Assembly (NCBI GenBank): GCA_947178105.1 | Contig: CAMWXD010000020.1 | Coordinates: 1 to 63,858, forward strand | Source of the DNA: an uncultured Eubacterium sp. | Lineage (GTDB): Bacteria; Bacillota; Clostridia; Lachnospirales; Lachnospiraceae | Length of the DNA: 63,858 bases | Direction of reading: 5' to 3' | In this document: positions 28,390-46,271 of the stretch, piece by piece | How the letters are laid out: each line of letters begins with the position of its first letter | How positions within the stretch are numbered: the first letter of the stretch is position 1 | The notes under the pieces: model-generated | Seen by the model: the letters and a program-made list of their open reading frames with translations, nothing else | Database searches by the model: none | What the model was told of the DNA's origin: nothing | Program-made: the position numbers and the translations under genes

Positions 28390-29454
28390 TCAGATGTCTG
28401 CAAGCTGGCGGATGATTCCGCAGCATTTGTAATGGCGCAGCGGATAAGATTCGACAGGCACGCCTTTTTCTTCGGCAAGCCGTAAGACGGGGCGCAGCGA
28501 CAGGTCGTCTTTCCAGCGCGTGCCTACCAGGATTTTCCATGGAACACGCCTTAATAAAACCCTGGTGGTTTCTCCGATGCCGGGCTTGATCAGATGCAGG
28601 CTGGAGATATGAAAGGCTTCTTTGATCGCCATGGCTTCCTCGACGCCGGTATCTGTGCACGGCTGCTGTGTGGCAGGCGTGAGAGCGTCGGCCCATGGTT
28701 TTGGAAAATGGGCTTCGATCGCGTCGATATAGGCGTATGACAAATCCTGCTGCCGGAGGCCTTCATAATAGACAGCCCCATGAAAATCATCGGCTCCGAT
28801 AATATCGCTTCTGAAAAAGGTACGGCTGATCAGCCCGGATACCGTACAATTTAAGCAGGAGCTGGGGATTAAAATATCTTCGTGCGTCCCGCACAACTGC
28901 GTCAGGTTTGCGGGGTCAGCAAGGACAGCGAGTTCTGGGGATACGCCTTCATAGCAAGCCGCTGCTTTTTTTAATTCCGTAAGGATCGCGCCTTTTCCGA
29001 TCCAGCCGTCGACAAACAAAAGCTGCCTGGGTGCATATCTGTCCAGCAAATACCGCATGGCGTTGCGGTCAATGCCTTTTCCGCGTATAATCGATATGGC
29101 ATAATGCGGCAGGTCTGCCAGCCCGTATTTTTTCAGGTACCGGCGGACTAAAATGCCGGCAGGAATGCCTGCCCTTGCCAGTGAAACGAGCACTGTCTGA
29201 CTGCCCCGTTCAGACAGGATCAGGCCGGCGAGACGGGCTGCTGCCGCCGCGGTCGGTGCGGCATACATGTGCAGGGCTTCGTTGTATACATGCATATATG
29301 CTTCGGTCGGGACGTATTCGATCGGGAGCATCTCACAATAGTGCCTGCCGGACTGGATCAGCCTTTCGCGTTCTGCGGTTGCCTGCGGCTTTACGGCGCC
29401 GGTAATATCCTTTAACAGTAAGACGACATCGTCTTGTTTATAAGAGCTGCGCAT
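28390..29454 (-). CDS. Ter-associated phosphoribosyltransferase-PELOTA protein (StiP family)
   Basis: 354 aa. An N-terminal PRTase-like domain shows VLVSLARAGIPAGILVRRY, YAISIIRGKGID and the PRPP-loop-like LLFVDGWIGKGAILTEL. A C-terminal ~90-residue PELOTA-type region begins near HLIKPGIGETTRVLLRRVPW. This pairing belongs to the biosynthetic module described by Anantharaman, Iyer and Aravind for tellurium-resistance (Ter) stress operons; databases also call it cysteine protease StiP family. It starts 4 nt after the C-C bond lyase gene on the same strand. The proposed role in making a nucleoside-like compound is a published prediction, not shown here. Confidence 0.78.
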   Translation of the reverse strand: MRSSYKQDDVVLLLKDITGAVKPQATAERERLIQSGRHYCEMLPIEYVPTEAYMHVYNEALHMYAAPTAAAAARLAGLILSERGSQTVLVSLARAGIPAGILVRRYLKKYGLADLPHYAISIIRGKGIDRNAMRYLLDRYAPRQLLFVDGWIGKGAILTELKKAAACYEGVSPELAVLADPANLTQLCGTHEDILIPSSCLNCTVSGLISRTFFRSDIIGADDFHGAVYYEGLRQQDLSYAYIDAIEAHFPKPWADALTPATQQPCTDTGVEEAMAIKEAFHISSLHLIKPGIGETTRVLLRRVPWKILVGTRWKDDLSLRPVLRLAEEKGVPVESYPLRHYKCCGIIRQLADI

Positions 29455-29458
29455 AGAA

Positions 29459-30442
29459 TCACCTCGCTATCCTTTCCTGGCAGGGCTTTATTCCGTATCT
29501 TTCGGCAAGATATAACGTTTGCCGCGCCCAGTTTGTATGTGTTTTGTGCTCGTTCATGCGTTCCCGCGCAGGGCTGGCGGATACCGCATATGCAGAATCG
29601 CTGTCCCAGTGCAGGATGCTGCGGGCGTCGTCGTAGTCTTTTTGTGTGACGCGGCAGGCGTCGTTGACTACGTCAATCTGGTTTGGATGGATTACGGTTT
29701 TTCCGATCAATCCGCAGAGCCTATCATCTGCAAGCTCGTTGATCAGCCCTTCCCGCCAGCCGTAGCCGCTGTAGTATTCCCATACCGCGCCGGATACGAC
29801 GTAATCCATGCCGTAAACAGCCATAATCGCAGAAAAAATGTCAGCGATCGGGCGGATGCGGTGGATGGATTCCCATGCATGGCGCCGGAACGAAAAGAGA
29901 TGGCACAGGTCATTTCCGCCGACGCGGATATTCAGCACAAGCTCTTCCACACGGGAGAGCTTTTCTTTGAGCGTATAGAGGACATCAAAACGGCTGCGCA
30001 GGTCTATGATGCACACGCTTTCGTAAATAGGCATCAGGTACAGGCGCCTGGCGAGAAATTCGTTTGCCGTTATCATCTGCTGTATGTAGGCATCCGCGTT
30101 TTCCGGCGAAAATTTCGGAATGATAAATCCGCTTAATAATTCCTGGCTGTCGCCAAGCAGGCGAACCATACGCATAATCTGCTGCGGGCAGCGTACGCGG
30201 ATAAAGATTTTTGGAAGGTAAAAGGAGGTATGCTCCAGGGCGCAGCGGATCTGGCGGATGGAATTTGCAAGGCATCGCTCGGCTTCTTCCACATGGGAAT
30301 CGCCGATCGTATCTTCCAGGCAGAGGGCAAGGGAAAAGCTGTCGCCGAATTTTTGACCGATCAGCGACGGGGCGATCGTTTCCCGGTTTGCCGGGCAGTA
30401 TAAAAGAGGGCCTACACTATAGTAGATCGATGAATTTTTCAT
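29459..30442 (-). CDS. Ter-associated HpcH/HpaI-type C-C bond lyase
   Basis: 327 aa, TIM-barrel fold of the citrate-lyase-beta type. Seen are LYCPANRETIAPSLI, the acidic ALCLEDTIGD, RVRCPQQ, IIPKFSPENA, LMPIYES, LNIRVGGNDLCHLFSFRR and GKTVIHPNQIDVV. This lyase is a standard partner of PRTase-PELOTA in Ter gene clusters. ATG 30442 is chosen because AAAGGAGC lies upstream of it and the promoter start is near 30494; the frame to 30574 runs through the promoter. First gene of the leftward half of a divergent stress-gene pair. Confidence 0.82.
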   Translation of the reverse strand: MKNSSIYYSVGPLLYCPANRETIAPSLIGQKFGDSFSLALCLEDTIGDSHVEEAERCLANSIRQIRCALEHTSFYLPKIFIRVRCPQQIMRMVRLLGDSQELLSGFIIPKFSPENADAYIQQMITANEFLARRLYLMPIYESVCIIDLRSRFDVLYTLKEKLSRVEELVLNIRVGGNDLCHLFSFRRHAWESIHRIRPIADIFSAIMAVYGMDYVVSGAVWEYYSGYGWREGLINELADDRLCGLIGKTVIHPNQIDVVNDACRVTQKDYDDARSILHWDSDSAYAVSASPARERMNEHKTHTNWARQTLYLAERYGIKPCQERIAR

Positions 30443-30500
30443 ATCATGCTCCTTTTGCGTGTCTGTTTCACGCTGATTGCCATTTGGGCTTTTGTATTCC

Positions 30501-30529
30501 AGTATAGCTATTTTTGGGTCATTCTGCAA
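30501..30529 (-). promoter_or_regulatory. promoter of the lyase-PRTase operon
   Basis: Minus strand TTGCAG (30529-30524), 17 nt, TATACT (30506-30501). Its -35 box is only 38 nt from the -35 box of the divergent promoter, so both operons could share regulation. Confidence 0.7.
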
Positions 30530-30567
30530 TCGGAGAACGTTTGTTCTGGCTTCGGAAGGATTCTTTG

Positions 30568-30596
30568 TTGACAAGATCTTTTTCTAATGATATTCT
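30568..30596 (+). promoter_or_regulatory. promoter of the YceG-protease/YceG/TelA/HAD operon
   Basis: TTGACA (30568-30573), 17 nt, TATTCT (30591-30596). It rules out a TTG start at 30597 for the first gene and supports ATG 30651. Confidence 0.75.
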
Positions 30597-30650
30597 TTGA
30601 GTAGAAACGGCAGCGGCACGATTCGAAATGTGACAGGGAATGTGAGAAAT

Positions 30651-32003
30651 ATGGAAAACATTATAAAATACAGGCATAATCATATAGAAGTCACCTCTCC
30701 TGAGAGCTTTGCAGCAGTCCGGGGCGGTATGCATGGCGGCGTCAGGGATGTGTGTTTTGTACGGATGTTAGGACGCAGCGCGGATTTTGACAGGCAGGTG
30801 CTTGCACTGGACGAAAAGCTGAAAAGCCAGATGCGGGCAGGCAGGCTTTATTACCGCAGGGCAGGCAGCCTGCCGGCATTATCTGCCAGCGGGGACATCG
30901 CCTATTATACAGCCTGCTATGATCGGTGGGCAGCATCGCCCCAGGGCGGCATCCAGACAAAGGTAAGCAGCGGCGCGCTGGCGGTGCAGCTTGGCGCAGC
31001 GTGCACATCCGCGCTGGAACGGTACCAGCAGCAAAAAGCGGCAGTAACAGCGTCCATACGGAAAAATTTTGCAGTAAAGCTGCTGTACTGGTTCGACTTT
31101 TTGTGCAGCGGGCTTTCGCAGTGGAGCGAAACAAGCTGTATCAAAATTGTAGCGGAAAATGTAGAAAAGGAGCAGGAATATCTGTTTTATTATTTTCTGA
31201 CGCTGGCAGGCTGCGACGTCCTGCTGCTGCAAAGCGCGGGCGATCCGGTAAAGGAGCGTTTAAAAAGCCTGTCCAGGGAGGTGCGCATCGGGGAATTTGG
31301 CGATCGTGGGCAGGAAAATATCGTAGTAAAGATCCCGCAGCGGAACAGGAAAAAGCATACAGTGCCTTCGACACAGCAGGCACAGCCAGCGGGGCAGTAT
31401 GCAGTTGCGGCATCGCCGCAGCCGCAGCGCAGCGAAAAGAGCTTTGAAGAGCTGGCGGCGCTTGCTTCGTCGATCGTGCTGATTTTAGTCCATGATGCGG
31501 ACGGGGCGGTGATTTCCACCGGTTCCGGCATTATGGCCTCAAACGCTGGATACATACTGACCAATGACCATGTAGCAAGGGGCGGGTATTCGTATTCTGT
31601 GCGGATTGAAAATGACGGGCAGGTATACCATACGGATGAGCTGATCAAATATAATACGCTGCTTGACCTGGCGCTGCTGCGTATCAACCGGCGCCTAGAC
31701 CCGATCCCGATTTACCAGGGGCAGAAAAAATTAGTACGCGGCCAGGCGGTTGCGGCGATTGGCAGCCCGCTCGGTTTGTTTAATTCGATCTCGGATGGGA
31801 TTATATCAGGGTTTCGTACCATTGACGGGGTAGATATGATACAGTTTACGGCGCCGATCTCCCATGGCAGCTCAGGGGGAGCCGTTTTAAATATGTACGG
31901 GGAAGTCATTGGGATCAGTACGGCAGGATTTGACCGGGGGCAGAATATCAATCTGGCTATCGGGTATGAAAGCATCAACCTGTTTCTACAGGGATTTCGG
32001 TAA
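30651..32003 (+). CDS. YceG-like domain fused to a trypsin-like (HtrA-type) serine protease
   Basis: 450 aa. Residues ~1-225 match the first unit of the neighbouring YceG in spacing and wording (helical block, KIVAENVEKEQEYLFYYFL, then LAGCDVLLLQSAGDP against SNAGCDVVLVQYGGDA). A Q/P-rich linker follows, then a chymotrypsin-fold protease from ~265: His307 in TNDHVARGG, Asp339 in LLDLALL, Ser408 in HGSSGGAV. The complete triad predicts an active enzyme. No signal peptide or PDZ domain is seen, so it should be cytoplasmic. It opens the operon with YceG, TelA and HAD. The fusion is unfamiliar to me. Confidence 0.75.
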   Translation: MENIIKYRHNHIEVTSPESFAAVRGGMHGGVRDVCFVRMLGRSADFDRQVLALDEKLKSQMRAGRLYYRRAGSLPALSASGDIAYYTACYDRWAASPQGGIQTKVSSGALAVQLGAACTSALERYQQQKAAVTASIRKNFAVKLLYWFDFLCSGLSQWSETSCIKIVAENVEKEQEYLFYYFLTLAGCDVLLLQSAGDPVKERLKSLSREVRIGEFGDRGQENIVVKIPQRNRKKHTVPSTQQAQPAGQYAVAASPQPQRSEKSFEELAALASSIVLILVHDADGAVISTGSGIMASNAGYILTNDHVARGGYSYSVRIENDGQVYHTDELIKYNTLLDLALLRINRRLDPIPIYQGQKKLVRGQAVAAIGSPLGLFNSISDGIISGFRTIDGVDMIQFTAPISHGSSGGAVLNMYGEVIGISTAGFDRGQNINLAIGYESINLFLQGFR

Positions 32004-32021: not shown

Positions 32022-34304
32022 TTGTTCCAGCATATAAAAATACAAAACCTGAACGACTTTTTTAAAAATCTGAACGAACGGGAAAGCACAGGCGTCTATT
32101 TTTACAGGATTAACGGGTATTCTAAGGAAATCGACGGGTTTATCTGCGCTTATTACGAAGCGGCAAGAAAAAACGGCGTCGTGATCGAAGGGAAACTGCA
32201 AAATCCAGATGAAAAAAACCTTGCCTATTATAATGAGATCATGGGCATGGATTTTCAGTTGCGTACAGGATTTATCAGCGCCAGCCTGAAAAAATGGCTG
32301 CCGAGGATGAACGACGGGCAGCGGGAAAATGTGGCGCTGTGCCTGTACGATGCGCTGTTTTTGCTGCAAAAGGAAGGCAAGACAGAGCATATGCTGAAAA
32401 ACGCGTATATTAAATGCATGTGCTGGCTGTATTACCGGTTTGAGCGCATTGTCAACCAGTTGGGGGAAAATCAGATTCCAAAGATCTTGTACGAAGGCGC
32501 TGTGAGCCAGTATGAGCTGATGATTTTGTCGATTTTATCCAATGCGGGCTGTGATGTCGTGCTGGTGCAGTATGGCGGCGATGCAGCCTATTTAAAGCAG
32601 GATGCGCTGTCGCAGCGCTCGGATGAGCTAAAGCTTCCTGGGATGCAGGCGTTTCCGCAGGGATATTGCTTAAAGCAGGTTCGCCAGAAGCTGCAGGAAG
32701 AGGCAAACCGGGAGAGATTGTATGGGACACTGCCGAAGCAGCAAAACTGTACGAATGCATGGATCAGTGGCAGCGTGCTGGAGGACATTCAAAAAAGCCC
32801 GGCGCAGCGCGGAGATGACCCACGTTTTTTTTACAACTGTTTTTGCAGGATCAACGGCGTGGAGGATAAGCTGACATACGCCAATACGTTGTATCAGCTT
32901 CAGCTACAGATCAAAAGCAGCGGGCGCAGGATCGTCATTGTCAACGAGAGCTTGGGGCGGCCGGCAATGGAGGAGATCGCCGCAGTCCGCAGGAACCATT
33001 ATACAAAGCTGGAGCAGCTAATTTTGGATTTGTCTGCGAACATCAGCATTCGTGAAACGGCGAGCGTGGAGCTGCAGCGGATGATGGTGCGCGCGTTTAC
33101 GGACGTCATGCTGATGGAGGCGGATGAGAGGGGAAGGGAGCTGAACCTGAACAAGCTGACCAATCAGGCGGTCTGCCTGCTTTGTTTTTTAAAACGCTAC
33201 CAGGGCAGGCTGTTTGGCGGCTGGAAGGAAGGAGATATCGGCTGTTTCTTTTTTATGGGCGGGTGCCAGGATGAGAGCGAGGTGTTGTTTTTCCGCTTTC
33301 TGGCGAGGCTTCCGGCGGATGTGCTCCTGCTGTGCCCGGATCTGGAGCGGCGCTGCTGCCTGAAAGACCGTCTGCTGTATGAGGTGCATCATACGCAGTC
33401 GTTAAAGCTTGCGGCGTTTCCGCAGGAGGATGCGGATGTCGTGGTCGGTACGGCTGCCTACCATGCAGAGCGGGAGTTAGATACGCTGATGTACCAGGAC
33501 AGCGGGCTCTACCGGGACAAACAGTATGAGAAGGCGAACACAGTTATTTTGCAGACGATGTATGAAGAGATCGCCATTCTCTGGAAAGAGGAGGTCAAAT
33601 ACAGGCCGAGCTTTTCGACGTCCAAAGACGAGGTGCATATCCCGGTGATCTTTGCAAAGGTGTCGGGCGTCAAGGATGGGCTTGTGCAGCCGTATTGGCG
33701 CTTTATCCGGGAGCTGGTGACGGAGGATACGTATGTGGTCAGGTCGGCGCCGTTTTTAGACCCGGCAGCGGCAAATCCAATGCGTGCCTGTGCGGCGGAG
33801 TTTTATAAAAACGGAAGGCTTAGGAAGGATAAGATCAAGTCCCATTCCAGCTATCCGTATGGCTATTTACGGGAAGAGGTGCAGGATTATATATTAGACA
33901 AATTAAAGCTGCTGATCGACCAAAAGGCCATCCGGGGGACGTTTGAAAACGGGACAGAATATGCGATTATTGCGACAGTGCTGCATCTGCCGAAGGAAAT
34001 CGTACGCCTGATCCAGAAATTTGACTTTACAAAAAAGAACCCGAAGCTTCTTTATATCCATACGACAGAGGCGATGATTTCTCTGGAGGATGCCATCCTG
34101 GCCGCGTTTTTAAACCGGATCGGATTTGATGTCGTCTTTTTCGTGCCGACGGGCTATCAGAATGTAGAGAAGTATTTTAACCGTAACATCATGGAGGAGC
34201 ACCAGATCGGCGAGTATATGTATGACCTGCATGTGCCGAACCTGGAAGGCCCGTTGCAGCGTACGCGTGTGTCATGGCGCGATAAGTTATTTAAGAGAAA
34301 GTAA
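32022..34304 (+). CDS. yceG: YceG family protein of Ter/Yce stress operons
   Basis: 760 aa, soluble. It resembles Bacillus YceG, encoded next to yceH (TelA) and TerD-like yceC-E. Three related units can be traced: IPKILYEGAVSQYE..LSNAGCDVVLVQYGGD (~160-190), CFFFMGGCQDESEVLFFRFL..ADVLLLCPD (~410-445) and LLYIHTTEAMISLEDAIL..GFDVVFFVPTGY (~680-720). TTG 32022 is taken as start: GGAAGGGGG lies 8 nt upstream and no in-frame Met occurs for ~70 codons. Function unknown; predicted with TelA to act in envelope or oxidative stress. Confidence 0.85.
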   Translation: MFQHIKIQNLNDFFKNLNERESTGVYFYRINGYSKEIDGFICAYYEAARKNGVVIEGKLQNPDEKNLAYYNEIMGMDFQLRTGFISASLKKWLPRMNDGQRENVALCLYDALFLLQKEGKTEHMLKNAYIKCMCWLYYRFERIVNQLGENQIPKILYEGAVSQYELMILSILSNAGCDVVLVQYGGDAAYLKQDALSQRSDELKLPGMQAFPQGYCLKQVRQKLQEEANRERLYGTLPKQQNCTNAWISGSVLEDIQKSPAQRGDDPRFFYNCFCRINGVEDKLTYANTLYQLQLQIKSSGRRIVIVNESLGRPAMEEIAAVRRNHYTKLEQLILDLSANISIRETASVELQRMMVRAFTDVMLMEADERGRELNLNKLTNQAVCLLCFLKRYQGRLFGGWKEGDIGCFFFMGGCQDESEVLFFRFLARLPADVLLLCPDLERRCCLKDRLLYEVHHTQSLKLAAFPQEDADVVVGTAAYHAERELDTLMYQDSGLYRDKQYEKANTVILQTMYEEIAILWKEEVKYRPSFSTSKDEVHIPVIFAKVSGVKDGLVQPYWRFIRELVTEDTYVVRSAPFLDPAAANPMRACAAEFYKNGRLRKDKIKSHSSYPYGYLREEVQDYILDKLKLLIDQKAIRGTFENGTEYAIIATVLHLPKEIVRLIQKFDFTKKNPKLLYIHTTEAMISLEDAILAAFLNRIGFDVVFFVPTGYQNVEKYFNRNIMEEHQIGEYMYDLHVPNLEGPLQRTRVSWRDKLFKRK

Positions 34305-34319: not shown

Positions 34320-35468
34320 ATGGGATTGGATTTTAGCAAGACAGCGGCAATGCCGGCACCAGTAGCGGCAGATGCAAAAAATGAAATAGAGGTAGTACAG
34401 CAGTACGATATCGTGGCGGACAGGGAGCAGATGAATGCGGCGCTGACAGGCTCTCAGGAGGTGGACGCCATTACAAGCACGATTGAAGTCCACAACCTGG
34501 AGACGATCGTATCGTTTGGGGCAGAAGTGGCGGAGGAGATCTCCAAGGCGTCGGACGTCGTGCTAGGCAGCATGAGTATGTCCCAGATCGACGATTCCAG
34601 CCAGATGTTAAATACGCTTGCAAAGATTATGGATCAGTTTGATATCGATGAAATCCAGGAAAATCCGGGCCGCTTTAAAAAGCTGTTTGGGAATATGCGC
34701 AAGCAGCTTGAGAAGATTCTGGATAAATACCATACGATGGGGGATGAGGTAGACAAGATCTATGTGCAGTTAAAGCAGTATGAGTCTGAGATCAAGCAGT
34801 CCAACCGCAACCTGAACCAGATGTTTGAGGCAAATGTAAACTATTACCATGAGCTGGTGCGCTATATCCTTGCCGGCGAGCAGGGATGCAGGGAGCTGCA
34901 GGCGTATATTGCGCAAAGAGAGGCTGATTTGGCGTCTACCGGCGATACCTCGATCCAGTTTGAGCTGGCGAGCTTAAACCAGGCGCTGATGATGCTGGAG
35001 CAGCGGACGCAGGATCTGCGGACAGCAGAAAGCGTGGCGATGCAGTCGATCCCAATGATCAAGACGATGGAATTCAGCAATATGAACCTGGTGCGCAAGA
35101 TCAATTCGGCATTTATTATTACCCTTCCGGTATTTAAGCAGGCGCTTGCGCAGGCGATTATGTTAAAAAGGCAGCGTGTGCAGGCGGAGGCGATGTCCGC
35201 GTTAGACCAAAAGACAAATGAGCTGCTTGTAAAAAATGCGCGCAATACCGTAGAGCAGTCAAAATATACGGCGCAGCTTGCATCCGGCAGTTCGGTAAAA
35301 ATCGAAACGCTTGAGACGACCTGGAAGACGATTGTGTCAGGCATCGAGGAGACAAGGCAGATCCAGGAGCAGGCAAGGAAGCAGCGCACTGAAGACCAGG
35401 CGCGGCTGGAAACGATCAAAAAGGAATTTCAGTCCATGTACCATGTGCCGGATGCGAAAAGGCAGTAA
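34320..35468 (+). CDS. telA: TelA/YceH family toxic-anion (tellurite) resistance protein
   Basis: 382 aa, normal length, almost entirely helical and soluble. Family blocks include YHTMGDEVDKIYVQLKQYES, LASLNQALMMLEQRTQDL, LVRKINSAFIITLPVFKQAL and NARNTVEQSKYTAQLASGS near the end. TelA-type proteins are linked to tellurite and toxic-anion tolerance and, as YceH, sit beside YceG in Bacillus. GGAGAGG lies before ATG 34320. Gaps of 15 nt to yceG and 4 nt to the HAD gene indicate one transcript. Confidence 0.94.
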   Translation: MGLDFSKTAAMPAPVAADAKNEIEVVQQYDIVADREQMNAALTGSQEVDAITSTIEVHNLETIVSFGAEVAEEISKASDVVLGSMSMSQIDDSSQMLNTLAKIMDQFDIDEIQENPGRFKKLFGNMRKQLEKILDKYHTMGDEVDKIYVQLKQYESEIKQSNRNLNQMFEANVNYYHELVRYILAGEQGCRELQAYIAQREADLASTGDTSIQFELASLNQALMMLEQRTQDLRTAESVAMQSIPMIKTMEFSNMNLVRKINSAFIITLPVFKQALAQAIMLKRQRVQAEAMSALDQKTNELLVKNARNTVEQSKYTAQLASGSSVKIETLETTWKTIVSGIEETRQIQEQARKQRTEDQARLETIKKEFQSMYHVPDAKRQ

Positions 35469-35472
35469 AAAG

Positions 35473-36285
35473 ATGGTTTTGTTCTGCACAGATCTGGATC
35501 AGACGCTGATTTATTCCTACAAGCATGATATCGGGCAAAACAGGCAGTGCGTGGAAGTATATCAGGGGCGGGAGGTTTCGTTTATGACACAGGAAACCTT
35601 CCGGCTGCTTGGCAAGCTGAAAGAGCGTGCCTGCATCGTGCCGGTAACGACAAGGTCGATCGAGCAGTATGGCAGGATTGCGCTTGGAATCGGCAGCCTT
35701 CCATATGCGCTTGTATGCAATGGCGGGGTGCTGCTTTTGCATGGAGAAAAAGAAAAAGCCTGGTACGAAAAGTCTTTGGAGCTGGCACAAGAAAGCCGGG
35801 CGGAATTAAAAGCGGCAAGGCGTATTCTGGAGCTGGAAGCGGACAGGACGCTGGAGGTGCGCCTGGTGGAAGGGCTGTTTTTATTTACAAAATGCCGGAA
35901 TCCGCAGCAGACAGTAGCGCGGCTGGAACAGGAGCTGTATGCACAGGAAGAAAAAGGCGGTACAAAACAGGAGCTGCATCCGCGGACGGTGCAGGTGTTT
36001 CGAAATGGAGAAAAGGTATATGCCGTGCCCAGAGGGCTGAATAAAGGAGCGGCAGTAGCACGGCTGCGGGAGCTTGTGGGAGCGAAGGCGGTCTTTGCAG
36101 CAGGAGACAGTGCGTTTGACCTGCCGATGCTCGCACAGGCGGATTTTGCGGCAGCACCGCCGGGATGCGGTTGGGAAGGGCTGCCGCAGTGCGCGCATGT
36201 GCGGGAGATGCCGGGCAGGAAAGTTTTTTCGGAGGAGCTGTTAGAGGCGGCCTTGGATCAGGTGGCATGGATATCAAGCTCCTGA
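35473..36285 (+). CDS. HAD superfamily phosphatase of the Ter operon
   Basis: 270 aa. Motif I is FCTDLDQTLIYS at the N-terminus, motif II is VPVTTRS, a lysine region follows (PRGLNKGAAVARL), and motif IV is VFAAGDSAFDLPML. This is the Cof-like branch of HAD phosphatases. HAD phosphatases are part of the predicted Ter biosynthetic module with PRTase and C-C lyase. ATG 35473 lies 4 nt after the telA stop. Its 3' end overlaps the convergent Uma2 gene by 28 nt. Substrate unknown. Confidence 0.88.
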   Translation: MVLFCTDLDQTLIYSYKHDIGQNRQCVEVYQGREVSFMTQETFRLLGKLKERACIVPVTTRSIEQYGRIALGIGSLPYALVCNGGVLLLHGEKEKAWYEKSLELAQESRAELKAARRILELEADRTLEVRLVEGLFLFTKCRNPQQTVARLEQELYAQEEKGGTKQELHPRTVQVFRNGEKVYAVPRGLNKGAAVARLRELVGAKAVFAAGDSAFDLPMLAQADFAAAPPGCGWEGLPQCAHVREMPGRKVFSEELLEAALDQVAWISSS

Positions 36286-36821
36286 AAGTCAATCCAGAAA
36301 TCATCATAAATAAATACTTTGATCCGATTCTGAAATGTATAAGAATGTACAGTAAATCGGTCTTGGATCAGATGATAGGCAAGTATGCTTTTTTGCTGCG
36401 GGTCAACAATCCAATATTCGCGTACACCGGCGTCCATATACAGGTTGAGCTTTTTTACATAGTCATGTCCTGGATTGCCGGGTGAAACGATCTCAATGAC
36501 CCAGTCTGGCGCGCCGGTGCAGCCTTTGTCTGTCAGCTTGTCAGGATTACAGACCACACTGATATCAGGCTCTACGATTGTTGTCCTGTCCTGAAACAGC
36601 TTTACGGCAAACGGGGCGGGATAAACTTTGCAAAAACCGTTTTTGGATTTGACGTAATTGCGTATGGTAGCGGACAGTTCCATTAAAATCTCCTGATGTA
36701 TCCGGCTGGGGGCAGCCATATTGTAAAACTGCCCGTCAATCAGCTCGGCATGTACATGTTCAGGCAAGTTGTAGTAATCCTCTTCTGTATAGGTGCGAAA
36801 GCTTGTGAGTGCCTGCGGCAT
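36258..36821 (-). CDS. Uma2 family (DUF820) PD-(D/E)XK nuclease-fold protein
   Basis: 187 aa. Seen are YYNLPEHVHAELIDGQFYNM at the N-terminus, the catalytic-type acidic EPDISVV and DWVIEIVSPGN, and YWIVDPQQKSI. Uma2 proteins have the restriction-endonuclease fold; their biological role is unsettled. The start at 36821 is supported by AAGAAAGG 8 nt upstream; the in-frame ATG at 36845 has no ribosome site. It is convergent with the HAD gene and the two overlap by 28 nt, so little room exists for separate terminators. Confidence 0.85.
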   Translation of the reverse strand: MPQALTSFRTYTEEDYYNLPEHVHAELIDGQFYNMAAPSRIHQEILMELSATIRNYVKSKNGFCKVYPAPFAVKLFQDRTTIVEPDISVVCNPDKLTDKGCTGAPDWVIEIVSPGNPGHDYVKKLNLYMDAGVREYWIVDPQQKSILAYHLIQDRFTVHSYTFQNRIKVFIYDDFWIDFQELDIHAT

Positions 36822-36865
36822 ATGCTGGTGTTCCTTTCTTATCATATTTTTTGTATGCTTTGCGC

Positions 36866-39061
36866 TTAAATTACAAAGTCCCCGTACATATACTGATGCA
36901 TCTGGATGGTCTTTGTGATCGTCTCAAGCAGCACCGGCACGTCGATCGGCTTTGGCAGGTGCGCGTCCATGCCGCTTTCGATCGACTTGCGCTTGTCGCT
37001 TTCGAAGGCGTCGGCGGACAGCGCGATAATCGGGATGTGTGCGAGCTGTTTGTTTTTCAGGCTGCGGATTGCCCTTGTCGCCTGCCTGCCGTTCATGACC
37101 GGCATCTGGATATCCATAAGGATCAGCGCATATTCATTTGGCGCTGCCTTCTGCATCATCTCGACTGCGATGCTGCCGTTTTCAGCGGTATCGATTACAA
37201 ATCCAAGCCCTTCAAGGATCGCGGTTTCGATCTCAAGATTAATTTCATTGTCCTCTACGAGCAGTATTTTGCGGCTGGACAAATAGTCCATCGTGTCCTC
37301 AATGCTCATCGAAACCGGGATCGGATGGTTCTGCGTTTTCAGGCGGAGGGTGACGGTAAATCTGCTGCCGCTGCCGACTTCGCTTTGCACATCGATCGTC
37401 CCGCCCATGACGTTCACTAATTTTTTAACAATCGTAAGCCCAAGCCCCGTACCGATCACGCCGCTGAAGGTCGTATTTTTTTCCCGCTCAAAGGGTTCGT
37501 AAATACGGCTTAAAAATGCCGGGCTGATGCCGATTCCGTTGTCCTCTACGACAAACTGGTAAACTGCGTGGTCATTTGGCAGCGTATTTAATTCTGTGGC
37601 GCTGACGGTGACCATGCCTCCGTTTTGCGTATATTTTATGGCGTTGTGGGCGAGATAGGACAGCAAACGCTCCAGTTTGTCCTGGTCGCTTTGAATATCG
37701 CTGTGTATCAGCCCGGAGCTGTCCAGCGTTATGGAAATCTCTTTTTCGCGCGCCAGCGGCAGAAAGGCGTTTTTTATATTCTCCAGAATATCTTTTAAGC
37801 TGCATTCTGTTTCGGCAGTACGGTTGTCGTCCGAATCTGTCCATGCGATTTCCAGCACTTTATCGATCAGATCCAGCAGTTGCTCGCTGGAAGCGTTGAT
37901 CTTGTTCAGATAGTAGGCGAGGCTGTCAGGATCATGCAGTTTGTCTTTTGCAAGTGCGGTAAAGCCGAAGATGGCATTGAGCGGCGTACGCATATCGTGG
38001 GACATATTCGAAAGAAACGTATTCTTTGCGGTTATGGCAAGGTTGGCGTTGTTCAGCGCCTCTTCCAGAAGCTGTTTTTGCTCAATCTGGCGCCGGACTT
38101 CGTCGTCCACCCGGCGGTATCCCATGACGATCTGGGAAATATGCTCGCTGCTTCCTACGTTGACAATCCGAAGCTGTAAGTATTGGGTCATGGAATCCTT
38201 CATGACCTTAAAATTTATGTAATAGGTCTTTTGCTTGGAAAGCATTTCGCGGATATAGTCCGCGGTAGTTTGCTGCGCGACGGTTTCTTTGTCTTCTGGA
38301 TGCACCCAGACTCTGGCATAATCCGCGGTATACCACGAAAAGCTGCGGGCATCGGCAGAATTTTCAAATTGCAGCGTCGTGCGGTTGCTTAAGCGGTAAG
38401 GCAGCACTTTATCCAGGTCAAGATCCGCATATAAAATCGAATCGTAGTTGATGCTCAGCCCTTCGATCACCTCCAGGCGGCGCAGGTGCTCCTGGTTAAT
38501 GACCTTCATCTCGTTATGGTACTGGTCGATCAGGCTTTTCAGTTCCTGTTCTTTTTGAAGCTGTTTTTCCATGGCTGCCTGCCGGCTTTCCCATTTTTGC
38601 GTGGCGTCGCTTACAAATACATAAAAAATATTTCCGACCGTATCTGTGCGGATGAAATGGCCGTAATCTTCGATCCAGCGGATTTTGCCGTCTTTGCGCT
38701 GGATCCGGTATTCTACATAATCCAGATCGTACTGGTTGTCTGCAATCTGCTCTTTGATGCTTTGTTCTACCTGGTCTAAGTCCGGCGGGTAGACAAAGCC
38801 CCGAAACGAATTTCCGGTAAGCTCCCTGAATTCACGGAGCGTCTCGCACTGGCAGATACGCAGCAGTGCTTTATTTGCATAAATGATTTCTTCCTGATCG
38901 TCTGCGCGGTAAATAAAAAATCCGCCTGGCATCTCATCCATAAAACGGATGACCTCACAGGCTGTCCGGATATTCTGTTTGCCCGGAGAGTCGTTGTTGG
39001 GGATGCTTAACAGAGACAGAATATACGCAAGCAGGTCAGGATCTATGTTTTGTTCTTTCAT
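36866..39061 (-). CDS. cytoplasmic PAS hybrid sensor histidine kinase with receiver
   Basis: 731 aa, no membrane span. A PAS domain lies at ~40-165 (FFIYRADDQEEIIYANKALL), a second PAS-like region at ~200-340, then HisKA with FLSNMSHDMRTPLNAIFGF, HATPase with NAIKYTQNGG and GTGLGLTIVKKLV, and a C-terminal receiver with LVEDNEINLEI, LILMDIQMPVMNG and LSADAFE. ATG 39061 has AGGGGGAA upstream. The arrangement fits an internal signal, for example redox or a small molecule, with multi-step phosphotransfer. It is divergent from terD and sits inside the Ter region, so it may control it (inference). Confidence 0.92.
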   Translation of the reverse strand: MKEQNIDPDLLAYILSLLSIPNNDSPGKQNIRTACEVIRFMDEMPGGFFIYRADDQEEIIYANKALLRICQCETLREFRELTGNSFRGFVYPPDLDQVEQSIKEQIADNQYDLDYVEYRIQRKDGKIRWIEDYGHFIRTDTVGNIFYVFVSDATQKWESRQAAMEKQLQKEQELKSLIDQYHNEMKVINQEHLRRLEVIEGLSINYDSILYADLDLDKVLPYRLSNRTTLQFENSADARSFSWYTADYARVWVHPEDKETVAQQTTADYIREMLSKQKTYYINFKVMKDSMTQYLQLRIVNVGSSEHISQIVMGYRRVDDEVRRQIEQKQLLEEALNNANLAITAKNTFLSNMSHDMRTPLNAIFGFTALAKDKLHDPDSLAYYLNKINASSEQLLDLIDKVLEIAWTDSDDNRTAETECSLKDILENIKNAFLPLAREKEISITLDSSGLIHSDIQSDQDKLERLLSYLAHNAIKYTQNGGMVTVSATELNTLPNDHAVYQFVVEDNGIGISPAFLSRIYEPFEREKNTTFSGVIGTGLGLTIVKKLVNVMGGTIDVQSEVGSGSRFTVTLRLKTQNHPIPVSMSIEDTMDYLSSRKILLVEDNEINLEIETAILEGLGFVIDTAENGSIAVEMMQKAAPNEYALILMDIQMPVMNGRQATRAIRSLKNKQLAHIPIIALSADAFESDKRKSIESGMDAHLPKPIDVPVLLETITKTIQMHQYMYGDFVI

Positions 39062-39253
39062 GATGAAACATTCCCCCTGAATCATTTCCGATAAGTTTTA
39101 TATCATTTAGTTTTATACCATATTTTATCAGTTTAACACAAAACAGTGGTTCTGTCATTATTTTAAGATATATTTTTTCACATTTTGGGAATACTGTTTT
39201 TGATAAGACAAATAAAATCCCAGGCGGAATCTGGCAGAATATGGAAATAGATA

Positions 39254-39329: not shown

Positions 39330-39911
39330 ATGCCGATTAATTTATCAAAAGGCCAGAAGGTTGATCTGACAAAAGGCAATCCGAGTTTGAAAAATATTAT
39401 GGTAGGATTGGGATGGGATGTGAATGCATTTGATTCCGGCGCGGATTTTGACCTGGACGCAGCGGCGTTTATGGTTGGCGCAAACGGAAAGTGCCCGACG
39501 GAAAAGGAATTTGTTTTTTACGGCAATCTGGAGCATACAAGCGGCGCCATCAAGCATATGGGCGACAACTTGACCGGAGCCGGAGAAGGCGATGACGAGC
39601 AGATCCAGGTTGATCTGGCAAAAATCCCGGCAAATGTGGAAAAAGTAGCCTTTACGGTGACGATCTATGATTCGGATGTCCGAAGGCAGAATTTTGGACA
39701 GGTCTCCAATGCGTTTATCCGGATTGTGGATGAAGCTACGGGTACGGAGCTGATCCATTATGACCTGGGCGAAGATTTTTCCATCGAGACAGCCGTTGTT
39801 GTCGGAGAATTATACCGGCATAATGGAGAGTGGAAGTTTAATGCGATCGGCAGCGGTTTCCAGGGCGGATTAGCGGCGCTTTGCGCGCATTATGGAATAG
39901 AGACGGCTTAG
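39330..39911 (+). CDS. terD: TerD family calcium-binding stress protein, copy 1
   Basis: 193 aa, normal length. Seen are [16 protein letters not shown] at the start, the acidic [26 protein letters not shown], and [17 protein letters not shown] near the end. TerD domains bind calcium through these acidic loops and are induced by tellurite, oxidative or envelope stress. AGGAGG precedes ATG 39330. It is the first of three tandem TerD genes; copy 2 follows after 37 nt and is highly similar, so recent duplication is likely. Confidence 0.96.
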
Positions 39912-39948
39912 CCGTTTGGAATCAAAAAAGGGTTAGGAGGAAATAGAT

Positions 39949-40530
39949 ATGCCAGTGAGTTTGCAAAAAGGGCAGAAGGTAAGCCTTACAAAAGGAAATC
40001 CGGGACTGAAAAACGTCGTTGTCGGGCTTGGCTGGGATGTGAACCAGTTTGACACAGGCGGGGATTTTGACCTGGATGCGGCGGCGTTTCTGCTGACAGA
40101 CAGCGGAAAGGTATCCAGGCAGGAGGACTTTATTTTCTTTGGAAATCTAACGCATCCGTCGGGCAGCGTCCAGCATATGGGCGACAACCTGACCGGCGCA
40201 GGGGAAGGAGATGACGAGCAGATTAAGATCGACCTGTCAAAGGTGCCGGAAAATATTACAAAAATTGCTTTTACGGTGACGATCTATGAGCCGGAGCAAA
40301 GACGGCAGAATTTCGGGCAGATCAACAATGCGTTTATCCGTATCTACAATGAGGATACAGGGGAAGAAATGCTGCGCTATGACCTGGGCGAGGATTTTTC
40401 GATCGAGACTGCCGCCGTATTTGGCGAAGTTTATAAAAACGGCAGCGAATGGAAGTTCAATGCGATCGGCAGCGGCTATCAGGGCGGGCTGAAAGCGCTT
40501 TGCGCGCAGTACGGCATCGACGCAGAGTAA
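39949..40530 (+). CDS. terD: TerD family calcium-binding stress protein, copy 2
   Basis: 193 aa, nearly colinear with copy 1 without gaps. The acidic motifs are [27 protein letters not shown] and [26 protein letters not shown] lies before ATG 39949. All calcium-ligand positions seen in copy 1 are kept. It is part of the terD operon and probably forms homo- or hetero-assemblies with its neighbours (inference). Confidence 0.96.
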
Positions 40531-40574
40531 CAAATAGTTGTATCATACGTAAAAATAGGTAAGGAGGCAGTTCA

Positions 40575-41165
40575 ATGTCAGTAAGTTTGCAAAAGGGCCA
40601 AAAGGTCAGCCTGTCCAAGGAACATGCGGGCCTGTCTAAAATGATGGTCGGCCTTGGCTGGGATGAAGCACAAAAAGCAAAAGGCGGATTTTTTGCGCCG
40701 AAGCCAAAGCCGATAGACTGTGACGCGTCGGCGCTGCTGTTAAAAAACGGAAGGCTTTGTGATAAATCGGATATCGTCTATTTTGGGAATCTCGGCCATA
40801 AAACAGGCGCGATCCAGCATATGGGCGACAACTTAACCGGCGCAGGGGACGGGGATGACGAACAGATCCTGGTCGACCTTGACCGGATTCCGGCGGAATA
40901 CGACCGGATCGTTATGGTCGTAAACATCTATCAGGCGGTGCAGCGTAAGCAGCATTTCGGGATGATCCAAAACGCGTTTATCCGTCTCGTAGACCAGAGG
41001 AACAACAGTGAGATGTGCAAATATAACCTGACGGATGATTATTCCGGTATGACCGCACTGATTTTCGGCGAGATCTACCGGCATAACGGCGAGTGGAAGT
41101 TCAGCGCGATCGGGCAGGGGACGACTGACCCTGGCCTTGGAGAGCTGGCGAACAGGTATGTATAA
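40575..41165 (+). CDS. terD: TerD family calcium-binding stress protein, copy 3 (divergent)
   Basis: 196 aa. It keeps [13 protein letters not shown] at the start and NLTGAGDGDDEQILVDL in the centre. It differs from copies 1 and 2 by a basic insert (GGFFAPKPKPID) before a changed acidic loop, CDASALLL. The end reads YNLTDDYSGMTALIFGE. Such divergence suggests a separate role in the same complex. AAGGAGG lies before ATG 40575. The calcium ATPase follows after 37 nt. Confidence 0.94.
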   Translation: MSVSLQKGQKVSLSKEHAGLSKMMVGLGWDEAQKAKGGFFAPKPKPIDCDASALLLKNGRLCDKSDIVYFGNLGHKTGAIQHMGDNLTGAGDGDDEQILVDLDRIPAEYDRIVMVVNIYQAVQRKQHFGMIQNAFIRLVDQRNNSEMCKYNLTDDYSGMTALIFGEIYRHNGEWKFSAIGQGTTDPGLGELANRYV

Positions 41166-43913: not shown

Positions 43914-43955
43914 ATAATTAAGAAATCTAGTTGTGCTTGGATCACTGGATTCTAT

Positions 43956-44057
43956 AATAGATGTTACGAATCATTTAAAAAATCGTTGTAATAGATGTTA
44001 CGAATCATTTAAAAAATCGTTGTAATAGATGTTACGAATCATTTAAAAAATCGTTGT
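43956..44057 (+). ncRNA. toxI: ToxI-type antitoxin RNA repeats (type III toxin-antitoxin)
   Basis: Three perfect head-to-tail copies of a 34-bp unit start at 43956, 43990 and 44024 (each begins AATAGATGTTACGAATCATT), and a 6-nt fragment of a fourth follows. The order promoter, tandem repeats, hairpin terminator, toxN frame is the diagnostic layout of ToxIN/AbiQ systems, where repeats of 34-36 nt are cut by the toxin into RNA pseudoknots that inhibit it. No spacers separate the units, so this is not CRISPR. Confidence 0.82.
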
Positions 44058-44060
44058 AAT

Positions 44061-44088
44061 AGAGAGGATAGGCAGCTATCCTCTCTTT
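44061..44088 (+). terminator. hairpin terminator between toxI and toxN
   Basis: AGAGAGGATA (44061-44070) and TATCCTCTCT (44077-44086) form a perfect 10-bp stem with a 6-nt loop and only a short T tract. A leaky terminator here is typical: it keeps antitoxin RNA in excess over toxin mRNA. Confidence 0.82.
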
Positions 44089-44112
44089 CATTATACATTA
44101 GGAGAAATAGGG

Positions 44113-44634
44113 ATAAAATGGCTGACGATTGATGAAAACTATCTGAATTATCTAAGAAGTTTTGAAAGCAGGATACCTTTATCTGATTATGGGTCAGATA
44201 AATACAAACCTTTCTTTGGCTCACTGTTTGTGACAGATGATGTTTGTTATGTTACCCAAGTATCTCATCCAAAGAAAAAGCATTACAAAATGCATTCTAA
44301 TATGGATTTTGATAAAGTATATAATCTTGATGGAAATTTAATTGCCGTGATAAATTATAATTACATGTTTCCGATTCCGAAATATTTATACCAGGAATTA
44401 CATTATAAAGATTTGGAGAAGTATCGGTCATTTAAAAACATGGAAGAAAAAAGCAAGTACATAAGTTTGCTGAAAAAAGAATTAGCTGTAATAAAATCCA
44501 TGGAAGTTGATAAGAAAGCAGTGAGGCTGTATAAACATAAGTATGAAAAGCCAGAAAGTGCTATTGCAGCAAGATGTCTTGATTTTAAATATATGGAATG
44601 TCTTGCGTTGGAATACATCTCCGCCATACTTTGA
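44113..44634 (+). CDS. toxN: ToxN/AbiQ-type endoribonuclease toxin; initiator position reads ATA
   Basis: The frame gives 173 aa, the usual ToxN/AbiQ length: IKWLTIDENYLNYLRSFE at the start, PFFGSLFV, the active-site-like VSHPKKKHYKM, then GNLIAVINYNYMFPIP and a helical C-terminus. ToxN cleaves mRNA and its own antitoxin RNA and commonly gives phage resistance. AGGAG (44100-44104) is 8 nt before codon ATA at 44113, exactly where ATG is expected. No in-frame ATG, GTG or TTG exists before GTG 44230, which would remove the N-terminal 39 residues. The toxin may therefore be weakly translated from ATA or be start-codon-inactivated. AT-rich codon use unlike the neighbours suggests transfer. Confidence 0.75.
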   Translation: MKWLTIDENYLNYLRSFESRIPLSDYGSDKYKPFFGSLFVTDDVCYVTQVSHPKKKHYKMHSNMDFDKVYNLDGNLIAVINYNYMFPIPKYLYQELHYKDLEKYRSFKNMEEKSKYISLLKKELAVIKSMEVDKKAVRLYKHKYEKPESAIAARCLDFKYMECLALEYISAIL

Positions 44635-44658: not shown

Positions 44659-45366
44659 CTAATCCATACCGATCTGAATACCGCCCCTGCGTTCCGTAGG
44701 CTGTACAACGACAGACACAGGCTGGTTTCCGCTCCATTCAAAGGCATAAGATTCCCCGGAAGCCTGCCCGATAAATGTTTTCCAGTTGATATCCGCCTTG
44801 ATCTGCGGGTCGCAGTAGCCAGACTGGCTCATCCAGCAAATCACCGCATCCGGGTCTACGGACAGCGTATTGCGGCTTTGGATGTTGCTTAGGACGATTG
44901 GGTTGCCGTTGGACAGGATCGCGACGTAGGAGTTGTTTCCGTTTCCGGTCAGCAGCGTAGTCGCAAAGCCTTTCTGGGACAGGACGCCGCATCCGAGAAA
45001 GCGGACTTCGTAGTGGCATTCCTGCGTAAAGGCGAGAATATTTTCTGATTCTACAGATACGACTTCTCCAGGCGCCAGCTTGTAAATAACGACATGCTGG
45101 CTGTCTACGGCGTAATAGGTAACGGAATTTCCGTTCAGCATAACCTTCATTAACGGAATATTTTCTCCGGTAACACGCCGGATCAGGGAGCCAAAGGCTG
45201 CCTGCGCAAAATTATTCTGCGGCCCAAGCAGCAGCTTTTCGAATTTGTAATTTTTTCCGCCTGGGCTGTCTCCGGCGATAAAGGAACCTGCCTTTGCAAT
45301 CAGCGTATCGCTGCCGCTGCAGGTGACTTTCAACGTTAGTTCATTGATTGTTTCGAAAGTTAACAT
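44659..45366 (-). CDS. AIM24 family protein
   Basis: 235 aa, beta-rich. Family features are LIAKAGSFIAGDS, FGSLIRRVTGENIPLMKV, VVIYKLAPGEVVSVESENIL and FLGCGVLSQKGFATTLLTGNG. Bacterial AIM24 proteins have a double-stranded beta-barrel-like fold; their role is unknown, but they often sit beside TerD genes. GGAGG lies before the ATG at 45366. It follows the fourth TerD gene by 14 nt on the same strand, forming a two-gene operon. Confidence 0.88.
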   Translation of the reverse strand: MLTFETINELTLKVTCSGSDTLIAKAGSFIAGDSPGGKNYKFEKLLLGPQNNFAQAAFGSLIRRVTGENIPLMKVMLNGNSVTYYAVDSQHVVIYKLAPGEVVSVESENILAFTQECHYEVRFLGCGVLSQKGFATTLLTGNGNNSYVAILSNGNPIVLSNIQSRNTLSVDPDAVICWMSQSGYCDPQIKADINWKTFIGQASGESYAFEWSGNQPVSVVVQPTERRGGIQIGMD

Positions 45367-45380
45367 AATGTGAAATCCTC

Positions 45381-46271
45381 CTAATCACTTACTTCTACGC
45401 CGTATAAGGCACAAAGCCCGGCAAGGTCTTTGGCAACGCCGTTTCCGACGGCATTGAATTTCCAGCTTCCGTTGTACAGGTATACTTCGCCGATCATCAT
45501 GGAAATAACATTGGAATAATATTCTGTCATCTGGAAGCTGACGCATTCCTTGCCATGTGCATCCAGAATACGGATATAAGCATCCTTTATCATGCCGAAG
45601 TGGAGCCTTTTGGCAAAAGCTTCATTGATCGTCAGCACAAATACAATCTTTTTAACGTCTGCATTTAATTTCTGAAAATCAATCGTAATGGTTTCCCGAT
45701 CCAGGGACTGGCTTGTTTTGAACTGGCAGCTTTTATCAGGGCTGCTTGCCTGGCCGTAAAAGACAAACCAGGAATCGCCGATGACTTTGCCGTCAGCGCC
45801 CAGCAAAAAAGCCGACACGTCGACATCACACTGCGCATTCAATGTATTCCAGCCGAAACATGCGGTCAGGATACCCGGATTTGCAGTACCGGCAGGAAGT
45901 GGTGCTTTCTGCCCTTTTTGCAAAGGCTTTACAAAAGCAGGGAGCTTTCTGGCAGGCGGCGCAGAGCGCAGCGATGAAGCAGCCTGCGGGGCGTTGGGCT
46001 GTGCATGAGAGCGAGGCGGTGAGCCAACCTGTGCATGAGAGCGAGGCGGTGAGCCAGCCTGCGCATGAGAGCGAGGCGGTGAGCCAGCCTGTGCATGAGG
46101 ACGAGGCGGTGAGCCAGCCTGCGTATTTGGCGGCGTGCGCCGTGCAGCGGGCGCCAGGTTCAGATCTGTGATATTGCCGGCAGTGAGCGCGCCTTGTATG
46201 CGTGTTTTGTTCATGGATAAAATGGAAGCCTGGTCCATCGAACCTTTGGATTTTTGAGCAATGTTAATCAT
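45381..46271 (-). CDS. TerD family protein with Pro-rich repeat linker, copy 4
   Basis: 296 aa. An N-terminal ~45-residue segment precedes a linker of 10-residue repeats (AQAGSPPRSH type, four copies, residues ~50-95), then a TerD domain from ~115: FVKPLQKGQKAPL, CDVDVSAFLLGADG, FGMIKDAYIRILD and YYSNVISMMIGE. The central loop that reads [13 protein letters not shown] in the other TerD genes is replaced by SQSLDRETI, so at least one calcium site is probably lost. GGAGG precedes the ATG at 46271. It is transcribed away from the AEC gene, with AIM24 downstream. Confidence 0.88.
   Translation of the reverse strand: MINIAQKSKGSMDQASILSMNKTRIQGALTAGNITDLNLAPAARRTPPNTQAGSPPRPHAQAGSPPRSHAQAGSPPRSHAQVGSPPRSHAQPNAPQAASSLRSAPPARKLPAFVKPLQKGQKAPLPAGTANPGILTACFGWNTLNAQCDVDVSAFLLGADGKVIGDSWFVFYGQASSPDKSCQFKTSQSLDRETITIDFQKLNADVKKIVFVLTINEAFAKRLHFGMIKDAYIRILDAHGKECVSFQMTEYYSNVISMMIGEVYLYNGSWKFNAVGNGVAKDLAGLCALYGVEVSD
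46001..46120. repeat. 30-bp coding tandem repeat in the fourth TerD gene
   Basis: About four copies with 30-bp period (starting near 46001, 46031, 46061, 46091) encode Pro-rich decapeptides on the minus strand. Units differ at only a few bases, so recent expansion is likely. Confidence 0.85.

Follow-up and report, generated by a model that had tools for sequence, protein, structure and literature searches.

We analyzed a 63,858-nucleotide stretch of DNA from an uncultured Eubacterium sp. of the Lachnospiraceae (GenBank CAMWXD010000020.1, assembly GCA_947178105.1), referred to in its full length as the window, which carries a gene joining a YceG-like domain to a serine protease amid genes of the Ter stress system. 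One conserved protein combines the YceG-like domain, by way of a flexible linker, with an HtrA-like protease domain whose catalytic residues are intact. The features of this fusion gene are as follows.

30651..32003, plus strand: the whole fusion gene, 450 amino acids, an open frame from the ATG at 30651 to the stop at 32003 (Pfam; 41 homologue rows)
30684..31244, plus strand: YceG-like domain, residues 12–198 (Pfam, profile-profile comparison, structure model)
31308..31415, plus strand: length-variable linker, residues 220–255, modeled with low confidence (pLDDT < 50) and containing the basic stretch IVVKIPQR (homologue rows, model)
31443..32000, plus strand: HtrA/S1C-type serine protease domain, residues 265–450 (Pfam, structure model, comparison with known proteases)
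31569..31571, plus strand: codon of the catalytic His307, invariant in 42/42 rows
31665..31667, plus strand: codon of the catalytic Asp339, invariant in 42/42 rows
31872..31874, plus strand: codon of the catalytic Ser408, in the motif SHGSSGGA, invariant in 42/42 rows
30568..30596, plus strand: promoter-like site, 10/12 with TG before the second hexamer, in a region where the number of such sites is at chance

The initial annotation had named a frame break at the linker as an observation that would refute it, and the homologues show none. We assembled 41 rows of homologues, of which named genome contigs supplied 27 and sampled genomes of the same family 14; the window copy brings the total to 42 rows. 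L032 was left out because it comprises the protease part only. Since L009 and L037 are identical, the rows represent 40 distinct homologues, and no other pair exceeds 93% identity. Set A1 holds 39 of the 42 rows (without L025, L037, and L040) and set A3 holds 37 (also without L009 and L023). The linker is unbroken in 39 of the 41 homologue rows, including L007, which lies on a contig of 6.3 Mb from Eubacterium plexicaudatum ASF492, and the other two (L025 and L040) are cut by contig ends. An alternative TTG start at 30597 would lengthen the window protein to 468 amino acids, and use of the promoter-like site at 30568–30596 would place the transcript start downstream of that TTG; the region contains 10 such sites compared to a shuffle mean of 9.1, which is the chance level. 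No ATG, GTG, or TTG is present upstream of residue 39 in L009/L037.

The first half of the protein had been likened to the neighboring YceG unit from a comparison of word patterns, and this early comparison proved right because family-wide Pfam matches, profile-profile comparison, and shared conserved positions all point the same way. The Pfam family YceG_bac (PF14266) matched residues 127–200 at 25.2 bits, just over the cut-off of 25. As this is a borderline score for the fusion protein alone, we tested the family and found YceG_bac at E ≤ 0.01 in 36 of the 39 members scanned (best E 2.8e-14), with no match in the remaining three. The assignment is thus borderline for the single protein and robust for the family. 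A lack of relation between residues 1–225 and YceG had also been named as refuting, and sequence profiles confirmed the relation. In profile-profile comparisons, residues 12–198 matched repeat 1 of the neighboring YceG (residues 5–187) with a probability of 97.7 (E 1.7e-12) and the YceG slice holding repeat 2 with a probability of 96.1 (E 2.8e-9). The third YceG slice (481–760) gave no match to residues 12–198 (3.2), and it also failed against the first slice of YceG itself (6.6); the protease part, serving as a control, scored 0.1. When residues 1–216 were modeled alone, the mean pLDDT was 95.1.

Positions conserved in both the fusion and the YceG families include F36, R38, G41, N139, K143, W147, K165, E176, G187, D189, Q194, and D198. 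A Walker A motif (GxxxxGK[ST]) was absent from the 42 fusion rows and from 21 YceG rows. The protein shares with Ter-system YceG a match to one YceG repeat and a set of conserved residues, whereas the fusion has one divergent repeat followed by a protease and the neighboring YceG has three YceG_bac stretches. Since it has one stretch rather than tandem repeats, we regard the fusion as carrying a single-domain relative of YceG and not as a YceG protein. The Escherichia coli protein formerly called YceG is now called MltG and is distinct from the Ter-system YceG; the MltG family was not among the Pfam matches.

The second half had been annotated as a trypsin-like protease with a complete His307-Asp339-Ser408 triad. 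The serine protease and its triad stand as described, while the type is refined to HtrA/DegS-like, of the S1C kind. Pfam Trypsin_2 matched residues 291–422 (E 3.7e-24) and was present in 39/39 scanned family members. The domain has a chymotrypsin-like fold with a His-Asp-Ser triad and is closest to the S1C domain of RsgI9, DegS, DegP-like proteins, and HtrA1. The absence of a PDZ domain and of a signal peptide, also claimed at the outset, held up as well. No PDZ family was found among the Pfam matches of the fusion protein and the scanned homologues, and nothing follows the protease domain in the protein, so we refer to an S1C-type domain and not to a canonical HtrA. Hydropathy revealed no signal peptide or membrane anchor, the highest 19-residue Kyte-Doolittle mean within residues 1–60 being 0.65; as a yardstick, four rhomboids reach 2.24–2.74 over their length. 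One homologue (L042) is an exception, with a value of 2.06 in its first 60 residues. Like HtrA and DegS, the fusion thus has a chymotrypsin-like fold with the catalytic triad; unlike them, it has an N-terminal YceG-like domain instead of a PDZ domain, signal, or membrane segment.

Among 39 sequences (L025, L037, and L040 left out), mean pairwise identity was 73% for the protease domain and 35% for the YceG-like domain, and the pairwise identities of the two domains correlated at 0.82. In a tree of 60 protease domains, built without L037, a branch parts 43 fused sequences from 17 unfused HtrA-like ones (support 80/88, 82% of bootstrap trees); the tree carries a long-branch warning, with L084 among the long branches. 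A single origin of the fusion would be the simplest reading. A wider search with the YceG-like part as query, in overlapping samples of the class (391 genomes) and of the phylum (398 genomes), which the named relatives suggest is Bacillota, uncovered four further fusions (G598, G577, G1000, and G832), each from another family of the phylum and each confirmed by the protease profile. The G598 fusion starts ~330 bases from a divergent terD gene and that of G1000 lies within ~10 kb of terD and yceG, while those of G832 and G577 lie away from both genes. Fifteen fetched loci of weaker matches (L047–L061) contained protease parts and no YceG-like part. Of 668 matching plasmid records, none matched more than 80% of the query; among the best 10 of the 668, the top two cover residues 166–449 at 26% and most of the others cover the protease part only. 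We conclude that the fusion is a conserved family and not a one-off.

The linkers that join the two domains vary in length and are rich in P, A, S, and R. Several of them (e.g., L015, L028, L030, and L039) contain a basic strand-like motif, VRVxLPxR, in up to four copies (L015). With L037 and L040 dropped beforehand, a strict VRVxLPxR-type pattern occurred in 14 of 40 linkers (23 copies) compared to a shuffle mean of 0.09, a contrast that is overstated because the pattern was chosen after inspection of the same linkers. None of the other operon proteins tested contained the strict pattern (e.g., 0/34 YceG rows and 0/20 TelA rows), and the window linker, with IVVKIPQR, fits only a looser version of it. 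The motif is a possible docking or cleavage peptide.

The following genes surround the fusion in the window.

32022..34304, plus strand: yceG, 760 amino acids, with three YceG_bac stretches, separated from the fusion by 18 bases (open reading frame [ORF] list, Pfam)
34320..35468, plus strand: telA, TelA family (Pfam)
35464..36285, plus strand: HAD-type hydrolase gene, its start chosen within the listed ORF 35311–36285
29459..30574, minus strand: divergent gene of the C-C_Bond_Lyase family (Pfam)
28390..29454, minus strand: StiP gene with a PELOTA domain (Pfam)
39330..41165, plus strand: three terD genes (ORF list, family search)

The C-C lyase, StiP-PELOTA, yceG, telA, and terD genes around the fusion identify the neighborhood as a Ter cluster, in line with the operon setting first proposed; the marker genes of a Ter system (terD, telA, yceG, and genes of the biosynthetic module) are linked in the window. 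Between the HAD gene and the terD genes, the window also encodes a Uma2 putative endonuclease and a PAS histidine kinase-receiver protein (36258–39085, minus strand). For the kinase, L007, L011, and L027 yielded close matches and L072 a weak match (29%); none of the other loci compared matched the Uma2 gene.

The initial annotation had suggested looking for the same fusion beside yceG in other genomes, and we found it there repeatedly. Among 47 fetched loci with yceG, the window not counted, 34 contain the fusion, which lies upstream of yceG on the same strand in 33 of these 34; in L014 it lies downstream. Of the 33 upstream fusions, 21 are within 200 bases of yceG, nine have a rhomboid gene in between, and three are separated from it by 238–405 bases. 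Across 299 genomes of the family, the fusion was found in 15 of the 28 with YceG_bac and in none of the 271 without it (Fisher’s p = 5e-18, with relatedness ignored). One of the 15 fusions (G240) is a contig-end fragment. Because YceG_bac also matches the fusion itself, we checked the fusion genomes for a separate yceG frame and found one in all 15, although in G076 it is a contig-end piece only. StiP and C-C lyase genes occur in loci both with and without the fusion. We compared the 13 fusion-less Ter loci (L062–L074) with those that have the fusion, matching them to 13 window proteins by BLAST and inspecting them by eye; no partner gene restricted to the fusion loci was seen, and the unmatched ORFs were not clustered. 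No window Ter gene was matched on the 4.6-kb contig of L009, whose genome has yceG elsewhere.

A second protease gene, not mentioned in the initial annotation, occupies a similar place. A rhomboid-type gene lies directly upstream of yceG in 14 of the 47 loci, 10 with the fusion and four without, the latter being four of the 13 fusion-less Ter loci.

L062 605–1195; L072 7815–8399; L073 5155–5769; L074 4982–5563: rhomboid-type genes of the fusion-less loci
L014, L019, L022, L025, L030, L031, L033, L034, L039, L045: fusion loci with a rhomboid-type gene

The search used a profile built from the four fusion-less copies. In 14/14 cases the rhomboid gene is on the same strand, 12–149 bases before yceG, and Pfam Rhomboid (PF01694) was confirmed in all four of the 14 that were scanned (E 9e-18 or better). 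The window itself yielded no rhomboid in the same profile search. Counting both kinds of protease gene, 38 of the 47 yceG loci carry one or more: 34 have the fusion and four the rhomboid only. That two unrelated serine proteases, the HtrA-like fusion and the rhomboid, repeatedly lie beside yceG suggests that Ter systems in these bacteria regularly involve proteolysis. The literature searched contained nothing joining rhomboid and TerD, the main Ter review being outside that search.

Pfam, profile-profile comparison, the structure model, conserved gene order, and co-occurrence with yceG all support the architecture, in which a Ter operon encodes an apparently cytoplasmic protein with a YceG-like domain and a complete serine protease. 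Many gut bacteria have the same fusion next to the same genes, so the Ter stress system probably has a proteolytic arm. Our preferred reading, a gated regulatory protease that acts in the cytoplasm as part of the Ter system, is in our judgment about as likely as not. Ter systems have been described as combining signal synthesis enzymes, ligand-binding TerB/TerD, membrane TerC, and sub-membrane TelA/TerF (PMC7824862). In our reading, the YceG domain would guide the protease, which would act on Ter proteins. The fusion would be cotranscribed with yceG, and its YceG-like domain would stand in for the PDZ domain and the membrane anchor that HtrA/DegS have; it would position or gate the protease, either by docking on a YceG/TelA assembly or by binding a small-molecule signal thought to be made by Ter systems. 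Once stress or invasion is sensed, the protease might be recruited to a small number of putative Ter-complex or membrane-associated clients (perhaps just one), or be set free to act on them. Cleavage of the Ter component or client would then change, reset, or trigger the complex, in a regulated and substrate-restricted proteolysis rather than bulk degradation. An extended version strikes us as improbable: in Ter modules of Bacillota, a membrane rhomboid and the cytoplasmic YceG-HtrA protease would form a relay at one shared YceG/TelA complex, and the YceG domain, with a degenerate fold of the AAA+/STAND type, would serve as a ligand-gated switch for the protease. If true, its logic would be comparable to apoptosome-type protease activation.

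Several observations weigh against a regulatory protease of the Ter system. Thirteen of the 28 yceG-bearing genomes lack the fusion, and the protease arm is therefore optional. In L008, L015, and L029, the window Ter genes were unmatched in the 8-kb flanks of the fusion, and yceG lies elsewhere in the genome. A stop codon splits the YceG part of the G577 fusion (C1:1552736–1553466), and no separate yceG was found in G577, making it the one exception to the co-occurrence of fusion and yceG. The conserved positions of the YceG domain would fit binding or folding alike, and the cytoplasmic location is predicted only from the lack of a hydrophobic segment.

The fusion could instead be a defense effector, such that phage or plasmid entry leads the protease to cut a host or pro-effector protein and growth stops. 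Resistance to tellurite, oxidative stress, phages, and colicins has been linked to Ter operons (PMC12054061), and PMC7824862 also connects them with phage inhibition. In addition, the PADLOC RT-Protease_XI models match the protease part (best E 5.1e-17), and the principle is shown by trypsin-like proteases that are fused to defense enzymes and activate a pro-nuclease (PMC12799240). As in the Hachiman, AVAST, and Lamassu fusions described there, an intracellular trypsin-like protease is fused to a sensing-system partner; there, however, the protease is N-terminal and a nuclease gene lies upstream, whereas no nuclease gene lies directly beside the fusion in the window, where the neighbors are the C-C lyase, StiP, yceG, telA, and HAD genes. 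No MBL-fold nuclease gene was found immediately upstream, the upstream neighbor being the divergent C-C_Bond_Lyase gene, and the Uma2 putative endonuclease gene is ~4 kb downstream, on the other strand, and without a match in other loci. The PADLOC match, moreover, may reflect the shared protease fold only. Overall, we consider a defense effector unlikely.

Quality control, with an HtrA-like enzyme clearing oxidatively damaged proteins at the Ter site without specific gating, is in our view rather unlikely. It would suit the similarity of the catalytic domain to RsgI9, DegS, DegP-like proteins, and HtrA1, but the protein is without PDZ domain, signal, or anchor, and its tie to yceG (0/271 genomes without yceG) points to a specific job. 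It is very unlikely that the protease serves to cut its own linker and free the YceG-like domain as the real product: the linker is predicted to be disordered and carries the VRVxLPxR-type motif in several homologues (four copies in L015), yet that pattern was picked once the linkers had been inspected, and conservation is much higher in the protease than in the YceG-like domain, the reverse of what is expected of a maturation device. A chance fusion of neighbors or a misassembly is hardly credible, for although the Pfam YceG score of the fusion protein is barely over the cut-off, there are 40 distinct homologues with an invariant triad plus fusions in four further families of the phylum, and the conserved fusion in independent assemblies rules out an assembly accident.

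The joining of a Ter domain to a protease has a partial precedent. A TerD-trypsin fusion of Pseudomonas syringae (YP_273108.1), the one case listed in 2008, was called functionally uncharacterized in that source (PMC2605481). It likewise places a Ter-system domain N-terminal to a trypsin-family protease, the domain being TerD there and YceG-like here. It is the nearest precedent found for the YceG-protease fusion, and the combination of a Ter domain with a trypsin-family protease is therefore not unprecedented. The YceG-protease fusion had initially been thought undescribed, and this is consistent with the literature searched, which held no account of it, of its spread and gene order, or of a rhomboid at the same place; the 2012 Ter review and a paper on yceGH, both outside the search, could still mention it. 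A conserved protease with an invariant triad offers an enzymatic handle on how Ter operons act. Ser408 in particular is a single-residue handle that may reveal the Ter component or client targeted.

Two further features were observed in the cluster. A gene for a TerD protein with ~115 extra N-terminal residues (45381–46268, minus strand) is adjacent to an AIM24-family gene (44659–45366, minus strand) at the far end itself. At 43955–44634, a 34-base unit is repeated 3.2 times without mismatch and is followed by an inverted repeat, seen by eye, and then by a ToxN-family ORF. Rfam gave no match at this repeat/ToxN site. The ToxN-family match begins at profile position 40, and the listed ORF starts late. 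Together, the 34-base repeat and the ToxN-like ORF resemble a toxin-antitoxin pair of type III within the Ter cluster.
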